A stretch of 35,457 nt of DNA, taken from assembly GCA_003245635.1 (NCBI GenBank), contig QKCO01000063.1:1-35457 (forward strand). The letters run 5' to 3'. This document shows, piece by piece, positions 6,737 to 29,980 of this stretch. The position numbers and the translations under genes were made by a program. The notes beneath the pieces were generated by a model. It made no database searches, was not told the DNA's origin, and was given only the letters and a program-made list of their open reading frames with translations. The stretch's first letter is position 1; every line of letters begins with the position of its first letter. Source of the DNA: Treponema sp. Lineage in GTDB: Bacteria; Spirochaetota; Spirochaetia; Treponematales; Breznakiellaceae.

Positions 6737-7855
6737 ATGGCAAAGGTAGAACTCAAAGGCATCTCCAAGGTGTACGACGGCAACGTGCGCGCCGTCGACA
6801 ACGCGAACATCACGGTCGAGGACAAGGAATTCGTGGTGTTCGTCGGGCCCTCCGGCTGCGGAAAGTCGACGACGCTCCGCATGGTAGCGGGTCTCGAGGA
6901 CATCACCGAAGGCGAGCTCCTGATCGACGGCGACCTCATGAACGACGTGCCGCCGAAGGACCGGAACATCGCGATGGTGTTCCAGAACTACGCGCTGTAC
7001 CCGCACATGTCGGTGTACGAGAATATGGCCTTCGGTCTGCGCATCAAGAAGGTCGACAAGGCCGAAATCGACCGCCGCGTGCACGAGGCCGCGCGCATCC
7101 TCGACATCGAGAAGCTCCTGGACCGCAAGCCCAAGGCTCTTTCCGGCGGCCAGCGTCAGCGCGTCGCCGTCGGCCGCGCCATCGTCCGCAATCCGAAGGT
7201 CTTCCTCTTCGACGAGCCGCTGTCCAACCTGGACGCCAAGCTCCGCGTGCAGATGCGCGCCGAGCTTTCCGACCTGCACATGCGCCTGAACGCGACCATG
7301 ATCTACGTCACCCACGACCAGGTCGAGGCGATGACCATGGCCAGCAAGATCGTCGTCATGAAGGACGGAAAGGTCCAGCAGATCGGCTCGCCGCTCTACC
7401 TCTACAACCATCCGATCAACAAATTCGTCGCCGGCTTCATCGGGTCGCCGCCCATGAACTTCCTGACCGTCAAGGTCGTGGAGAAGAACGGCGAAGTGAT
7501 GCTCGACGAGGGCGGCTTCGAGCTCAAGCCCGCTGCCGAGCACGCGAAGTATCTGAAAAGCTATGTCGGCCAGGAGGTCTACTTCGGCATCCGCCCGGAG
7601 GATCTGCTGTACGCCGAGACGCCCGCCGCGGAGAACAACATGCCGCTCAAGGTGACCGTCGTCGAGCCGCTCGGCGCGGACATCCACCTCTGGCTGTCCA
7701 CCAAGACCCAGCCGCTGGTAGCCCGCACCGAACCCCACCATACCTTCAAGATCGGCGACGCGGCCAACTTCACTCCTAAGATGGACAAGGCCCGCTACTT
7801 CGACCGGAATACGGAGCTGTCGCTGCTCGCCGAGCTCGACGCCGCGGCTCGCTAG
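6737..7855 (+). CDS. Sugar ABC transporter ATP-binding protein, MalK/MsmX/UgpC type
   Basis: This 372-residue ATPase belongs to the carbohydrate uptake CUT1 group. It has Walker A GPSGCGKST (37-45), a Q-loop in VFQNYALYPHMSVYENMAFG, the signature LSGGQRQRVA (135-144), Walker B VFLFDEPLSNLD (155-166), an H-loop in YVTHDQVEAMT and a C-terminal regulatory/TOBE region with FGIRPEDL. It energises import of sugars or glycerol-phosphate-like solutes by dimerising under a pair of permeases. No permease or binding-protein gene is adjacent, and it has its own strong promoter, ribosome binding site and terminator. It may therefore be a shared ATPase serving several transporters, as MsmX does in Bacillus. 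The substrate cannot be assigned. Confidence 0.93.
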   Translation: MAKVELKGISKVYDGNVRAVDNANITVEDKEFVVFVGPSGCGKSTTLRMVAGLEDITEGELLIDGDLMNDVPPKDRNIAMVFQNYALYPHMSVYENMAFGLRIKKVDKAEIDRRVHEAARILDIEKLLDRKPKALSGGQRQRVAVGRAIVRNPKVFLFDEPLSNLDAKLRVQMRAELSDLHMRLNATMIYVTHDQVEAMTMASKIVVMKDGKVQQIGSPLYLYNHPINKFVAGFIGSPPMNFLTVKVVEKNGEVMLDEGGFELKPAAEHAKYLKSYVGQEVYFGIRPEDLLYAETPAAENNMPLKVTVVEPLGADIHLWLSTKTQPLVARTEPHHTFKIGDAANFTPKMDKARYFDRNTELSLLAELDAAAR

Positions 7856-7990: not shown

Positions 7991-9742
7991 ATGGAAACGG
8001 TTAGCGTCGCCGATACCGTCGATGTCAGACAGCGCATTAAATCCCTCATCGGCGATTCGGAACGATTATTTCTGACGTTCGCGGATACCTTCCCGGAATT
8101 CGTCAAGGAAATGAAACGAAGCCTCGAACGATCCTCCTCCATGCTCGGATCGATCGGTTCTGGGTCCGGTTTCGAGAACGCGCTTCATGCTCTCTTCCAT
8201 TCCACCCGATCGGCGGTTTCGGTCGCGGCGGGGCGTTTCAAGGATATGCAGGAGCGCGACCGCGCCCTGCTCTTTTCTCTCGAGAACGGCATCAAGACCC
8301 TCAGCAGCCTCGACTCGATCATCGCCCGGATCAAGGACGATTCGGTCGAGATGGAGATCATTTCCCTCAACGCGATGACCGTCGCGCTCAAGTCCGGCTC
8401 AGCCGGCAAGGCCTTTTCCGTCATAACGGACGAGCTGAAGCGGCTTTCCGCCCGGACCATAACGCTTACCGACCGTCTTACGGAGGACGGCAAGAAGCTG
8501 CTGGTGACCTTCGAATCCTTTCGCGCAGACGTCGAGCAGCTCGAACACCAGCAGAGCGAGCTGTTCGAAGGGCTCGAGAAGCGGCTTGTCGAGCCCTTTT
8601 CGGCGCTCGAGGCGGCGGTCCGGGACATCGGCGGGCGCATGCTCGATCTGGTGGATCGTTCACGCTCCATCGAGCCGCCCGTGCGGGCGATCATGGAGAC
8701 GGTGCAGCTTCAGGACATCGTCCGCCAGTCCCTCGAGCATGTCCTGATGGCGCTGGACGAGATGGATGCGGTCGGGGGCTCCTCCTCGGATCTCCTGTTC
8801 AAGAGCCGCCTCGCGGAGCTCGCTTCGGCGATGGTCGCCGATGTGCGCTCCCAAATCGCCGGCGCCGCCGCCACCATCGCGGAAGGGACGGAGGCGGTGT
8901 CTAAGATCGTCGAGGAGGGCGAATCGAAGCGGCGGGATCTGCTCGGAGAAACGGGCGGCATGGGCGGCGCGGGGCTCGCCGTCAAGGCGTTTTCCCGCGC
9001 TGCGGAGACGCTCGTGTCCCTATCTTCCCAAGTCGACGGCTACCTCCGCACGAAGAGCGCACTTGCTTCCAACGGCGGACAGCTCTCCGGCGCCGTGGAG
9101 ATTCTGGACCGGGGGTTCCTCGAGTTCGGCAAGATATTGAACCGATTCAAGAACATAGACGTCGCTTCCCGCATCGAGGTGGCCAAGCAGCAGTCCCTCA
9201 GGTCTATGAGCGACACCGTGGTCGAGATGTCTTCCCTCACGACGCGGATCGGCGAGGACGTGGGCGAGGCGACGCTCTCCACCCGCGGATTCATCGCGGA
9301 AACCACGACCGCGATCGAGGGCTATACGCTCTTGGCCGAAGAAGAGGGGCTCCTCATAAGGGAATCGCAGGACAGTCTGGAGGAATCCCATCGCGGCGTC
9401 GTTCGCTTGAAGGATGCCCTGCAGCAGAACGCGCGCGATTTCTCCCTTTATACGACAGATTTCCTTTCCCTGCTCGAAGCCTCCAAGACCGAGTCGCTGC
9501 GTTTCGGGAAGATGATCGGCGAACTGCAATCGGCGGAACGGCAGCTCGCGGCTTTCAAGACCGCCGCGGACGCCGAAATCGCCCGCCGCGGCGAGATCGC
9601 CGTATCCGCGCCCGAAGAGCTCGAGCGTTTCAGGGACGTCATCGAGCGCTTCACCATCTACGCCCATAAGCAGGCGGCGGCGGACATCGGCGGTTTCCGG
9701 GTCGAGTCGGGCGTCGAACTGGGCGAAGTCACGCTGTTCTGA
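7991..9742 (+). CDS. Soluble, degenerate chemoreceptor-like coiled-coil protein with CheZ-like DxxxQ motif
   Basis: This 583-residue protein has no signal peptide or membrane segment and is almost entirely helical. Residues 119-155 (EMEIISLNAMTVALKSGSAG and then KAFSVITDELKRLSART) align without gaps to the MCP hairpin tip. Residues that normally make trimer and kinase contacts differ: the QTN is EME, the core Glu is Val and the Arg is Lys. Downstream, VQLQDIVRQSLEHV places D242 and Q246 in the spacing of the CheZ catalytic motif (QDLTGQ in CheZ). The C-terminus, GEVTLF, is a short acidic/hydrophobic tail. It is followed after 21 nt by cheD. I infer a cytoplasmic chemotaxis regulator, possibly a CheY-P phosphatase rather than a receptor. 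Receptor-like ancestry is well supported; the activity is not. Confidence 0.7.
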   Translation: METVSVADTVDVRQRIKSLIGDSERLFLTFADTFPEFVKEMKRSLERSSSMLGSIGSGSGFENALHALFHSTRSAVSVAAGRFKDMQERDRALLFSLENGIKTLSSLDSIIARIKDDSVEMEIISLNAMTVALKSGSAGKAFSVITDELKRLSARTITLTDRLTEDGKKLLVTFESFRADVEQLEHQQSELFEGLEKRLVEPFSALEAAVRDIGGRMLDLVDRSRSIEPPVRAIMETVQLQDIVRQSLEHVLMALDEMDAVGGSSSDLLFKSRLAELASAMVADVRSQIAGAAATIAEGTEAVSKIVEEGESKRRDLLGETGGMGGAGLAVKAFSRAAETLVSLSSQVDGYLRTKSALASNGGQLSGAVEILDRGFLEFGKILNRFKNIDVASRIEVAKQQSLRSMSDTVVEMSSLTTRIGEDVGEATLSTRGFIAETTTAIEGYTLLAEEEGLLIRESQDSLEESHRGVVRLKDALQQNARDFSLYTTDFLSLLEASKTESLRFGKMIGELQSAERQLAAFKTAADAEIARRGEIAVSAPEELERFRDVIERFTIYAHKQAAADIGGFRVESGVELGEVTLF

Positions 9743-9763: not shown

Positions 9764-10351
9764 ATGTTCCACCATAAGACGGCGCAATTCGAGCAGCCGA
9801 TCACCATCATCCATCCGGGCGAATACCTGGCAACCACGGACGACATCATCATCGCGACCGTGCTCGGCTCGTGCGTTTCCGTCGCCCTGCGCGATCCTCA
9901 GACCCGCATAGGCGGGCTCAACCATTTCATGCTCGCCGGCGATTTCGACGAGCGCGCCGGCTTCGTGTCCGCGAACGCCAAATACGGCATGTACGCGATG
10001 GAACTGCTGATAAACGACCTGATGAAGCTCGGCTGCCGGAAGGACCGTCTGCGCGCGAAGGTGTTCGGCGGAGGGTCGGTGCTGCACTTGGGGCACGAGA
10101 GGGGCAATACGGTTCCCCGGAGCAATATCGAATTCGCCTTCGATTATCTGAAAACCGAGGGAATCCCGGTGGATAGGCAGGACGTGGGCGGTATGACGGC
10201 CCGGAAGATCCTCTTCTTCGTGAAGGACGGCAAGGTGCTGCTGAAGCGCATCACCGGCACGCTCATCAAAGCGGTGGACATGGAGGAGAAGGAATACCTC
10301 ACCCGCATCAAGAGGACCCAGGAGTCCGCGGGGAACATCGTACTCTTCTAG
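9764..10351 (+). CDS. cheD: Chemoreceptor glutamine deamidase CheD
   Basis: This 195-residue CheD converts specific receptor glutamines to glutamate, and in many bacteria is inhibited by or partners with CheC-type phosphatases. Visible family features are the catalytic Cys37 in ATVLGSCVSVAL, His54 in GGLNHFML (17 residues later, as in characterised CheD), KVFGGGSVL and a C-terminal beta region. Start ATG 9764 is favoured by GAAGG 8 nt upstream; a nearer ATG at 9757 is in another frame. It lies 21 nt behind the soluble receptor-like gene, so the two are probably one transcript. The protein ends GNIVLF, resembling the GEVTLF tail of its neighbour. Its TAG shares the palindrome CTAG with the convergent ribonuclease gene. 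Confidence 0.93.
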   Translation: MFHHKTAQFEQPITIIHPGEYLATTDDIIIATVLGSCVSVALRDPQTRIGGLNHFMLAGDFDERAGFVSANAKYGMYAMELLINDLMKLGCRKDRLRAKVFGGGSVLHLGHERGNTVPRSNIEFAFDYLKTEGIPVDRQDVGGMTARKILFFVKDGKVLLKRITGTLIKAVDMEEKEYLTRIKRTQESAGNIVLF

Positions 10352-27700: not shown

Positions 27701-29032
27701 ATGACAGCGAACGGCGAAACGACAGCGAAAGAAGAAGCGATCGAAGAGCGCAAGGACCGCATCGACACCATCGATTTCAAGATGGTGACCTTCTCCCTGG
27801 CGGGGAAGGACTACGGCGTCGACATAATGAACGTCAAGGAGATCGCGAAGGCGGGAAAATTCACCTACGTTCCCAACGCGGCGCCCTTCCTGCGCGGCGT
27901 CTACAATCTGCGCGGCGACATCATTCCGGTGATCGACCTGCGGGTATTCTTCCATCTGCCCGCTGAAAAGAAGGAAGAGGATGCGCTGGAGAATACGCTC
28001 ATCCTCCGGGTCGGGGAGCAGGTGATCGGCGTCATCGTCGACAACATCGACAAGGTCGTCGGCATCGCGTCCGCCGCAATCCAGCCTCCGCATCCGATTT
28101 TCGGCGACATCAACATCAAGTACATCCGCGGCGTTGTGGAGAATCAGGGCCGGCTCTACATTATCCTGGACGCGGTGAGGATCTTCGCCCCCAAGGAAGA
28201 ATCGAAGCGCGCCATCGCCGAAGTCGGCGACGCGTCCTTCTCCGCGCCGCTGCCGATCGCTGAACCGCGCGTCGAATCCGATCGGCAGGCGGCATCGTCC
28301 GATCTCGATTTCATCAAAGAGACTCTGTTCGCTTTCCGCCGCTTCTCGACAACCGAGCTCAACGAGGCGTGGGTCGCTTCGCGCTTCGCGGAGTGGAAGG
28401 CTTCGAAAGGCGGCAAGGACCTCCAGCTGAAGGACCCGGATGACGCGGACCAATATCTGAGCACATTCTATTCTCCGTACTCCGGCGCTTTCTGGAGCGA
28501 CGAATACGCCGCGGCCGTTTCGGAGACGCTTCCCGATATTTCCGCGAAGAACATCAACGTATGGAATCCGGGGTGCGGAAAGGGGCAAGAGACCTTCTCA
28601 TTCGCGTGCATCCTGCGGAATCGGTATCCGGACGCGCGCGTGAAGATTTGGGCGAACGATTCGGATCTGCTTTCGATTTCCACCGCCCCCAACATGGTGT
28701 TCGATTTGGACGATGTTCCCGAGTTCTGCCGGGAGCACATGACTAAGGGGCGGAACGGATACGGCTTCAGCCAGGCGATCCGGGATTCGATCGTCTTCGA
28801 GTACCACGACGTCCTGAATTCAAACCCGTATCCGGACCTCGATATCGTTCTCGCCCGCGACCTCCTCTCGCTTTTATCCTCGACCGACCAAGTCCGCGTC
28901 ATCGAGGATTTCGCGGAGAAAATGAAGGGCAATGGTATTTTGATGCTGGGCCGGAACGAGCGCTTGGATTTCTCCGGGGATTGGAAAGCGATAGGGAATG
29001 ATCTGGTGTCGGTCTACACGCGGGCCGAATGA
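27701..29032 (+). CDS. CheW fused to a degenerate CheR-like methyltransferase domain
   Basis: This 443-residue fusion has residues 25-165 as a complete CheW adaptor (TFSLAGKDYGVDIMNVKEI, GVYNLRGDIIPVIDLR, GVIVDNIDKVVGI) that links receptors to CheA. Residues 200-443 resemble the CheR methyltransferase fold, with a SAM-binding-like loop NPGCGKGQETFSFACIL (289-305) and WANDSD (317-322). However, the conserved CheR motif FCRNVLIYF is replaced by LARDLLSLLS, and the N-terminal CheR helical domain is reduced. Family knowledge: CheW-CheR-like fusions occur in Treponema arrays and are thought structural rather than catalytic. GAGGAAAG precedes ATG 27701, 10 nt after cheA. Confidence 0.88.
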   Translation: MTANGETTAKEEAIEERKDRIDTIDFKMVTFSLAGKDYGVDIMNVKEIAKAGKFTYVPNAAPFLRGVYNLRGDIIPVIDLRVFFHLPAEKKEEDALENTLILRVGEQVIGVIVDNIDKVVGIASAAIQPPHPIFGDINIKYIRGVVENQGRLYIILDAVRIFAPKEESKRAIAEVGDASFSAPLPIAEPRVESDRQAASSDLDFIKETLFAFRRFSTTELNEAWVASRFAEWKASKGGKDLQLKDPDDADQYLSTFYSPYSGAFWSDEYAAAVSETLPDISAKNINVWNPGCGKGQETFSFACILRNRYPDARVKIWANDSDLLSISTAPNMVFDLDDVPEFCREHMTKGRNGYGFSQAIRDSIVFEYHDVLNSNPYPDLDIVLARDLLSLLSSTDQVRVIEDFAEKMKGNGILMLGRNERLDFSGDWKAIGNDLVSVYTRAE

Positions 29033-29067: not shown

Positions 29068-29532
29068 ATGAGAGTCGAATATATCAATCCCTTCGTGGAA
29101 GCAGCATTCAACGTTTTGAAGGAAGTTCTAAACTCCGACGTGAAGCGGGGTGAACTCTATCTGAAATCGACTACTATGCCCGTGCTCGGCGTCGCGGCTC
29201 TCGTCGGATTGGCCGGGGACGTCGAGGGCCGCGTGCTCTTCGACATGTCCAAGCCGACCGCGCTCGGTGTCGCGTCCGTAATGAACGGCGAGGAGCTCGC
29301 TACGATGGACGAGTTGGCGAAGGCCACGATTACGGAGCTCGCGAATATGATCACCGCGCAAGCGGTCACGAAGTTGCACGATCTCGGTTTTAAATTCGAC
29401 CTGACTCCTCCCGCGCTGTTCACCGGCGATAATATGGAAGTGTCCGACCATGAAGTCGAAGCCTTGATAGTCCCGATGGAAGTGCCGCAGGGAAAGATCG
29501 AAATCAACGTCGCGATCCGCGAACGGGCGTAA
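29068..29532 (+). CDS. cheX: CheY-P phosphatase CheX
   Basis: This 154-residue CheC/CheX/FliY-family phosphatase dephosphorylates CheY-P. It has the single ExxN catalytic motif on the central helix (E90 and N93 in TITELANMITAQAV), and a second such motif is absent, as expected for CheX. The beta strands GRVLFDMSK and KIEINVAIRE fit the family fold, which dimerises by strand exchange. AAGGAG (29057-29062) lies before ATG 29068, which is 35 nt after the CheW fusion. cheY starts 10 nt downstream, matching the conserved spirochaetal cheA-W-X-Y order. Confidence 0.93.
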   Translation: MRVEYINPFVEAAFNVLKEVLNSDVKRGELYLKSTTMPVLGVAALVGLAGDVEGRVLFDMSKPTALGVASVMNGEELATMDELAKATITELANMITAQAVTKLHDLGFKFDLTPPALFTGDNMEVSDHEVEALIVPMEVPQGKIEINVAIRERA

Positions 29533-29542
29533 CAGGGAACGT

Positions 29543-29980
29543 ATGAAGACAAAAGAGGATTTTCCTGCGATAAATGCTCGGGAGCCCGATGGCCGGAAAC
29601 CCGACGGTTCCCCCTACCGGGTGCTCGTGGTCGACGATTCAATCTTCGTCGCGAAGCAGATCGGCCAGATCCTTTCATCCGAGGGCTACGATATCGTCGC
29701 TACGGCGGGAGACGGCGAACAGGGCGTGGAAAAGTACAAGGAGCTGTTCCCGAACATCGACCTGGTGACTATGGATATAACGATGCCGCGGATGGATGGG
29801 ATTTCCGCGCTCGAGCACATCATGAATTTCGACAAGAACGCCAAGGTCATCATGATCAGCGCGCTCGGAAAACAGGATCTGGTAAAGAAATCCCTGTTGC
29901 TCGGCGCCAAGAATTATATCGTAAAGCCGCTGGATAGGAAGAAAGTTCTCGAGCGCATTTCGCAGGTTTTGTCCAAGTAA
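29543..29980 (+). CDS. cheY: Chemotaxis response regulator CheY
   Basis: This 145-residue single receiver domain carries phosphorylation from CheA to the flagellar switch. Active-site residues are present: D31/D32 in VLVVDDS, phospho-acceptor D78 in VTMDITMPRMDG, S106 in MISALG and K128 in VKPLD. It carries about 24 extra residues before the receiver core (a charged segment ending DGRKPDGSPY), longer than most CheY proteins. AGGGAA precedes ATG 29543. It is the last gene of the chemotaxis operon; no clear terminator follows before the tRNA promoter. Confidence 0.94.
   Translation: MKTKEDFPAINAREPDGRKPDGSPYRVLVVDDSIFVAKQIGQILSSEGYDIVATAGDGEQGVEKYKELFPNIDLVTMDITMPRMDGISALEHIMNFDKNAKVIMISALGKQDLVKKSLLLGAKNYIVKPLDRKKVLERISQVLSK

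Follow-up and report, generated by a model that had tools for sequence, protein, structure and literature searches.

A gene of the window (the whole stretch of 35,457 nucleotides from Treponema sp. that was analysed) encodes a receptor-like protein of the BB0569 family with a probably CheZ-homologous site at the base of its hairpin. Judged from its sequence, the protein most likely binds CheY-P at the receptor array and speeds its dephosphorylation, a reading towards which we lean on balance. The site appears to be receptor-derived, CheZ-like and putatively CheY-P-binding, probably that of a phosphatase. The protein family itself is known already, but the literature searched mentions neither its CheZ-type site nor the intermediate receptors described below nor the tail shared with CheD, and the motif strings of the site were not found there in a chemotaxis context.

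Results

Distant membership in the BB0569 family

The original prediction of a receptor-like protein with a CheZ-type motif was confirmed as an observation: the open reading frame of 583 amino acids at 7991-9742 on the forward strand carries VQLQDIVRQSLEHV at residues 238-251, including D242 and Q246 (Table 1). The expected lack of membrane segments was likewise borne out in the sequence. In NCBIfam the protein matched NF052273 (E 2.9e-27, residues 98-561 on positions 104-567 of 590), and its 95.5 bits stay far below the curated equivalog cut-off of 1000 bits, which was built on Borrelia. By sequence it is a BB0569-family homologue outside the narrow Borrelia equivalog, that is, a distant member. 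It was placed there and not under CheZ because both the CheZ profile match and the CheZ tail are absent. What had been suggested as a possible new type of CheY-P phosphatase or array-bound sink is not wholly new, since it belongs to a family already known (BB0569, NF052273), and the interpretation given with it is partly supported overall.

About 100 homologues were collected by genome searches and a scan of named genomes, and the named ones were all from Spirochaetota. Conservation was calculated in 53 non-redundant spirochaete homologues with less than 80% identity. The distribution of strong matches was patchy: only a small number of genomes in the family to which the window belongs had one, compared with the majority of genomes in two further families of the same order (f4 and f5). 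The Borrelia proteins in the alignment share the length, the architecture, the lack of a membrane segment, the receptor tip, the DxxxQ helix, FTxxxHK and a C-terminal GxVxLF with the protein studied here, but they are only 17-19% identical to it, read DRLTQ instead of DIVRQ at the site and are encoded inside a cheA1-cheB2-cheY2 cluster and not beside cheD.

Table 1. Features of the gene and of its chemotaxis neighbours in the window.
Feature	Position	Strand	Basis
BB0569-family receptor-like soluble protein, 583 aa	7991..9742	+	ORF; NCBIfam NF052273; homologues
Residues 16-40, conserved (S/T)E (E24); putative helix opposite the DxxxQ site at the hairpin base, counterpart of the CheZ (M)TExAA helix	8036..8110	+	conservation; profile comparison; symmetry of the hairpin in related proteins
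Tip of the receptor hairpin, residues 118-150 (SVEMEIISLNAMTVALKSGSAGKAFSVITDELK), without QTN and core Glu	8342..8440	+	alignment; Pfam MCPsignal 106-165; helix break at 135 (model); MCP structures as best matches
CheZ-type site, residues 239-250 (QLQDIVRQSLEH); D242 at 8714-8716, Q246 at 8726-8728	8705..8740	+	conservation; helix phase; profile alignments
Second hairpin of long helices (residues 329-483), turning near 400, conserved RFxNIxxASRIE (385-396)	8975..9439	+	AF2 model; invariant I395, E396, M413
Conserved FTIYAHK, residues 554-560 (family FTIxxHK)	9650..9670	+	alignment
C-terminal tail GEVTLF, residues 578-583, common to the neighbouring CheD	9722..9739	+	conservation; tail search
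cheD, ending GNIVLF	9764..10351	+	Pfam CheD E 1.5e-27; neighbour in 49/61 loci
cheX, established CheY-P phosphatase type of spirochaetes	29068..29532	+	Pfam CheX E 8.8e-19
cheY, likely partner/substrate	29543..29980	+	Pfam Response_reg E 1.5e-26

A receptor-type hairpin whose tip is modified

The hairpin-tip pattern of MCPs is real, though weak by Pfam, where MCPsignal matched residues 106-165 with an E of 7.4e-5 and the score (PF00015, 23.1 bits) lies below the curated cut-off of 34.6. All 28 members of the first homologue alignment matched MCPsignal (best E 1e-8). The described loss of tip contacts holds for QTN, replaced by EME (120-122), and for the core Glu, replaced by Val131, whereas the Arg is exchanged conservatively for Lys134; this position is Lys in 94% of the family and Arg in Borrelia.

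In the AF2 model (mean pLDDT 85.7, pTM 0.64) the full-length protein is all-helical and forms two long hairpins, one with its turn near residue 135 and the other near 400. Residues 1-264 were modelled as a single hairpin (pLDDT 83.8, pTM 0.47). Fold searches with the whole model returned mostly generic long-helix matches, and the 1-264 fragment was the informative query: its 14 best PDB fold matches were all chemoreceptor cytoplasmic domains or models, including Tm14 (3g67) and Tsr (1qu7). Tm14 was also found by sequence with the profile of the homologue set (E 6e-16 over 22-232), so that chemoreceptor structures, next to the weak MCP profile match, ranked best by profile and by fold. CheZ (1KMI) was absent from the 50 best fold matches of both the whole model and the fragment. 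Residues 1-264 are therefore predicted, on the model, to fold as an antiparallel chemoreceptor hairpin with a central tip, and this modelled hairpin would place the DxxxQ site at its base, at a distance of about 107 residues (16 nm) from the tip. The protein has the hairpin fold in common with cytoplasmic chemoreceptors (Tm14, TlpC type) but differs from them in its tip without QTN and core Glu, in the additional CheZ-type site and in a second helical part of 320 residues.

Conservation and geometry of the DxxxQ site

The two residues of the motif are conserved among orthologues, D242 in 51 and Q246 in 52 of the 53 sequences, and so are Q239 (52/53), S247 (52/53) and H250 (53/53). These five positions rank 7th to 30th among all 583 by conservation. 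Just two sequences depart from the site, one of them (L114) with the entire segment scrambled. Even the Borrelia proteins, despite an identity of 17-19%, read LQFQDRLTQS here, with D and Q four apart. Conservation of DxxxQ at the sequence level is far above chance.

Burial in a coiled-coil core, which would speak against the original prediction, was not indicated: on a helical wheel, which does not use coordinates, D242 and Q246 lie opposite the hydrophobic face (at about -174 and -134 degrees from it), as in CheZ. Over the span D-1 to D+17 these angles are within 1 degree of those of CheZ and of the intermediate family, although the choice of other spans shifts the values by up to about 28 degrees. 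The protein has in this way a feature that marks members of CheZ, a catalytic-type DxxxQ after a Q-D context on an exposed face, with exposure read from the wheel. The candidate counterpart of the facing CheZ helix is conserved as well. E24 is kept in 91% of the 53 sequences, and the N-terminal part of the homologue alignment scored 21.4 against the intermediate family in hhalign, where the best shuffle reached 14.5.

A link to CheZ through intermediate receptors

Neither Pfam CheZ nor NCBIfam CheZ matched the protein at E up to 1, and when 28 homologues were searched at E up to 10, CheZ was not among their 25 commonest families. In hhalign, run with a set of 13 CheZ sequences and 40 column shuffles as controls, the protein scored 17.7 against CheZ, compared with 21.4 for the best shuffle; a further comparison with CheZ gave a probability of 0.3%. 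Direct CheZ homology was rejected because neither HMM searches nor hhalign gave a significant result. Since the direct comparison is not significant, the proposed CheZ homology is transitive, and the support for it came through an intermediate family alone.

This intermediate family comprises 11 proteins (L057-L060, L144-L149 and L151), about one third identical overall, in which a clear MCP tip is followed by SLQFQDITRQ, invariant in 11/11. Pfam CheZ aligned across the motif in all nine intermediates tested (E 5e-5 to 0.08), and NCBIfam CheZ matched one intermediate (7e-4) as well as a receptor from Methylosinus that is built in the same way (2.5e-5). A Pfam CheZ search of 119 related genomes gave four proteins, all below the cut-off. 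Each of them combines a receptor tip with LQFQDITRQ, and at three of these places the hit overlaps a match to the 583-residue protein. The Bacillus subtilis control genome also contained a Pfam CheZ match below the cut-off.

The intermediates resemble CheZ on both of the helices that are opposed at its active site. Their motif half matched CheZ in hhalign with a score of 45.8 (P 4.6e-7), where the highest of 40 shuffles reached 19.2, and their TE half with 26.0 (P 6e-4; best shuffle 15.8). The two matches are separate and collinear. KTExAAxxLI in the intermediates corresponds to MTExAAxR in CheZ, and the TE and DxxxQ elements are nearly equidistant from the tip in most intermediates and receptors with a readable tip. 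Reversed columns of the motif half still scored 28.6 against CheZ, and part of the similarity is therefore generic coiled-coil bias. Our protein in turn aligned to the intermediates at residues 16-261 (97.9%, E 5e-13) with D242 on the D of the intermediates, and with the tip removed the match remained (P 7e-8, 44.6 compared with 17.1 for the best shuffle). In sum the CheZ link is nothing directly and good indirectly, as far as sequence comparison can tell.

The intermediate profile matched 31 receptor-like places in this genome, and only in the gene described here did the match run through the site. A second gene of the receptor-CheZ type, L193, belongs to the intermediate family and lies in the same genome at the end of contig C112 (23800-24907); the N-terminal part with HTEQAAMTLIERF is present and the gene is cut by the contig end.

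The same arrangement was found in five plasmid-borne proteobacterial receptors from Aeromonas, Pseudomonas, Sphaerotilus, Methylosinus and Methylobacterium, which have QFQDxxxQ after the tip (QFQD[IRV]xxQ in L174, L175, L176, L177 and L194) and end in DVTFF, DITFF or IELF. The Borrelia-built BB0569 profile matched the Aeromonas, Sphaerotilus and Methylosinus receptors (QFQD[IR]xxQ) across the motif with E 3.7e-7 to 4e-4. The five receptor genes adjoin response-regulator genes, and in three of the five also cheA. A chance resemblance, to be considered because DxxxQ is short and the helical protein long, would agree with a direct CheZ comparison no better than shuffled controls. Such a coincidence is nevertheless hardly credible, as the site is near-invariant over the family and recurs in independent intermediate and proteobacterial receptors; conservation already disfavours it.

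Compared with CheZ (PF04344, NF041271; 1KMI), the protein has in common the DxxxQ with its preceding Q-D, the helical phase and the facing (T/S)E helix, and a polar location is reported for BB0569 as for CheZ. It differs in the missing direct profile match, in its tip, which is that of a receptor and not that of CheZ, in its C-terminal tail and in the spacing between the two site elements, which is about 218 residues here and about 81 in E. coli CheZ.

Second hairpin, C-terminal tail and CheD

The turn motif of the second hairpin is followed downstream by an invariant F491. A search for a relative or function of this hairpin (329-483) found none. An internal duplication of the two hairpins was rejected, as the best alignment was not convincing (P 0.009, 4.6% probability).

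The C-terminus had been likened to the acidic and hydrophobic tail of CheZ. A short tail is indeed present and is more specific than described, G-[ED]-[VI]-T-[LF]-F in nearly all members, but the C-terminal CheY-binding helix of CheZ (DDLLxSLGF) is absent, the protein ending in GEVTLF. Among 4113 ORFs of at least 100 amino acids from 74 loci, the form [GND]x[VI]x[LF]F ended only BB0569-family proteins (61) and CheD (7), and 33 of 49 neighbouring CheDs have a form of it at or near their end; in the window the CheD tail is at 10331-10348. Because CheD has the tail too, the tail may bind something other than CheY, and from sequence it looks like a common docking signal. The predicted neighbour cheD was found directly downstream, and this order is common: 49 of 61 non-Borrelia loci have it, and if only the 53 loci are counted whose sequence continues for 700 bases or more after the gene, the number is likewise 49. 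Just upstream (6737-7855) lies a gene for a sugar-type ABC transporter ATPase, present in 52 of the 61 non-Borrelia loci as an unexplained conserved neighbour of the chemotaxis gene pair.

Chemotaxis genes of the window

CheA, a CheW-CheR fusion, CheX and CheY are encoded at 25-30 kb of the window, CheW and CheR being fused in a single protein (27701-29032). CheX/CheC would share the substrate CheY-P with our protein but have an unrelated fold and another motif, ExxN. In E. coli, CheY Lys26 pairs with CheZ D143; the CheY of the window has Ser at this position. A Rhodovastum CheY adjoining a true CheZ has Ser there too, so this residue is uninformative.

As CheX already supplies phosphatase activity in these organisms, the site might only hold CheY-P near the array without hydrolysis and thereby delay or buffer the signal. 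Such a sink or polar holder would draw on the same site and localisation evidence as a phosphatase. We regard it as improbable, since 51 of the 53 sequences retain D and Q together, and in a site that only binds, loss of the catalytic Gln should be more frequent.

Discussion

In E. coli CheZ, Q147 positions the attacking water and D143 holds CheY, and we infer catalysis at D242/Q246 from this family knowledge of Asp143/Gln147. In the mechanism that we favour, the tip or the second hairpin would anchor the protein in the polar receptor array, and the hairpin base would present D242/Q246 to CheY-P. Q246 would then position the attacking water while D242 holds CheY, as their counterparts do in CheZ. 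CheY-P bound at the array would thereby be dephosphorylated faster, which would provide local control besides CheX. A structural role in the array may exist in addition to that of a phosphatase.

What is known from Borrelia limits this reading, as the mutant phenotype does not agree with that of a simple phosphatase. A bb0569 mutant is reportedly one that runs constantly and loses its receptor clusters. BB0569 has a polar location, is indispensable for chemotaxis (PMC5318424) and has been called an atypical MCP (PMC10703414). A Borrelia cheX mutant shows constant flexing and a cheY3 mutant constant running (PMC4013479). Constant flexing is the phenotype expected of a lost phosphatase. Set against the flexing of the cheX mutant, the running reported for bb0569 suggests that an array-building role dominates in Borrelia. 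Since loss of BB0569 resembles loss of signalling, the protein likely has a structural role, and any role as a phosphatase would be visible in point mutants only.

These observations could also mean that the protein does nothing but build the array, with the QDIxRQSxxH stripe as a non-catalytic interface to another receptor, to CheW/CheA or to a second copy, derived from an ancestor shared with CheZ. Constant running would then be the result of lost kinase signalling, and polar location, the need for BB0569 in chemotaxis (PMC5318424) and its atypical MCP character (PMC10703414) would agree with it. So would the fact that Q239 and H250, outside the DxxxQ pair, are conserved as strongly as D and Q, and that residues in and beside DxxxQ of Azorhizobium CheZ also affect polar localisation (PMC7750401). 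We nevertheless consider a purely structural protein rather unlikely. A mere interface would need neither the D-x-x-x-Q of CheZ with the preceding QxQ/xFQ nor the same helical phase, and the intermediate family matches CheZ on both helices.

Returning to a CheY-P phosphatase at the array, the relation to CheZ may extend beyond spirochaetes. To our knowledge CheZ counts as a phosphatase family of its own, and no receptor relatives of it are known; a literature search for a link between CheZ and receptors found nothing. CheZ has AxxFQ-DxxxQ, its hairpin is of variable length before as well as after the turn, and its tip is a localisation element in E. coli (PMC7750401), features that fit a receptor-like origin. 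We tentatively propose, with slightly more doubt than confidence, a class of chemoreceptor-CheZ hybrids across spirochaetes and proteobacteria, in which the base of a receptor hairpin would bear the active site of CheZ and many members would have a C-terminal [VI]x[LF]F tail. CheZ would be a shortened member of this class without the receptor tip, or share a common ancestor with it, and BB0569 of Lyme Borrelia would be included, ending the signal at the array.

If this is true, kinase activation and CheY-P removal would take place in one array. BB0569, long regarded as an atypical MCP, would gain a testable activity, for which D242/Q246 and their BB0569 equivalents are direct targets. It would also suggest where CheZ came from.
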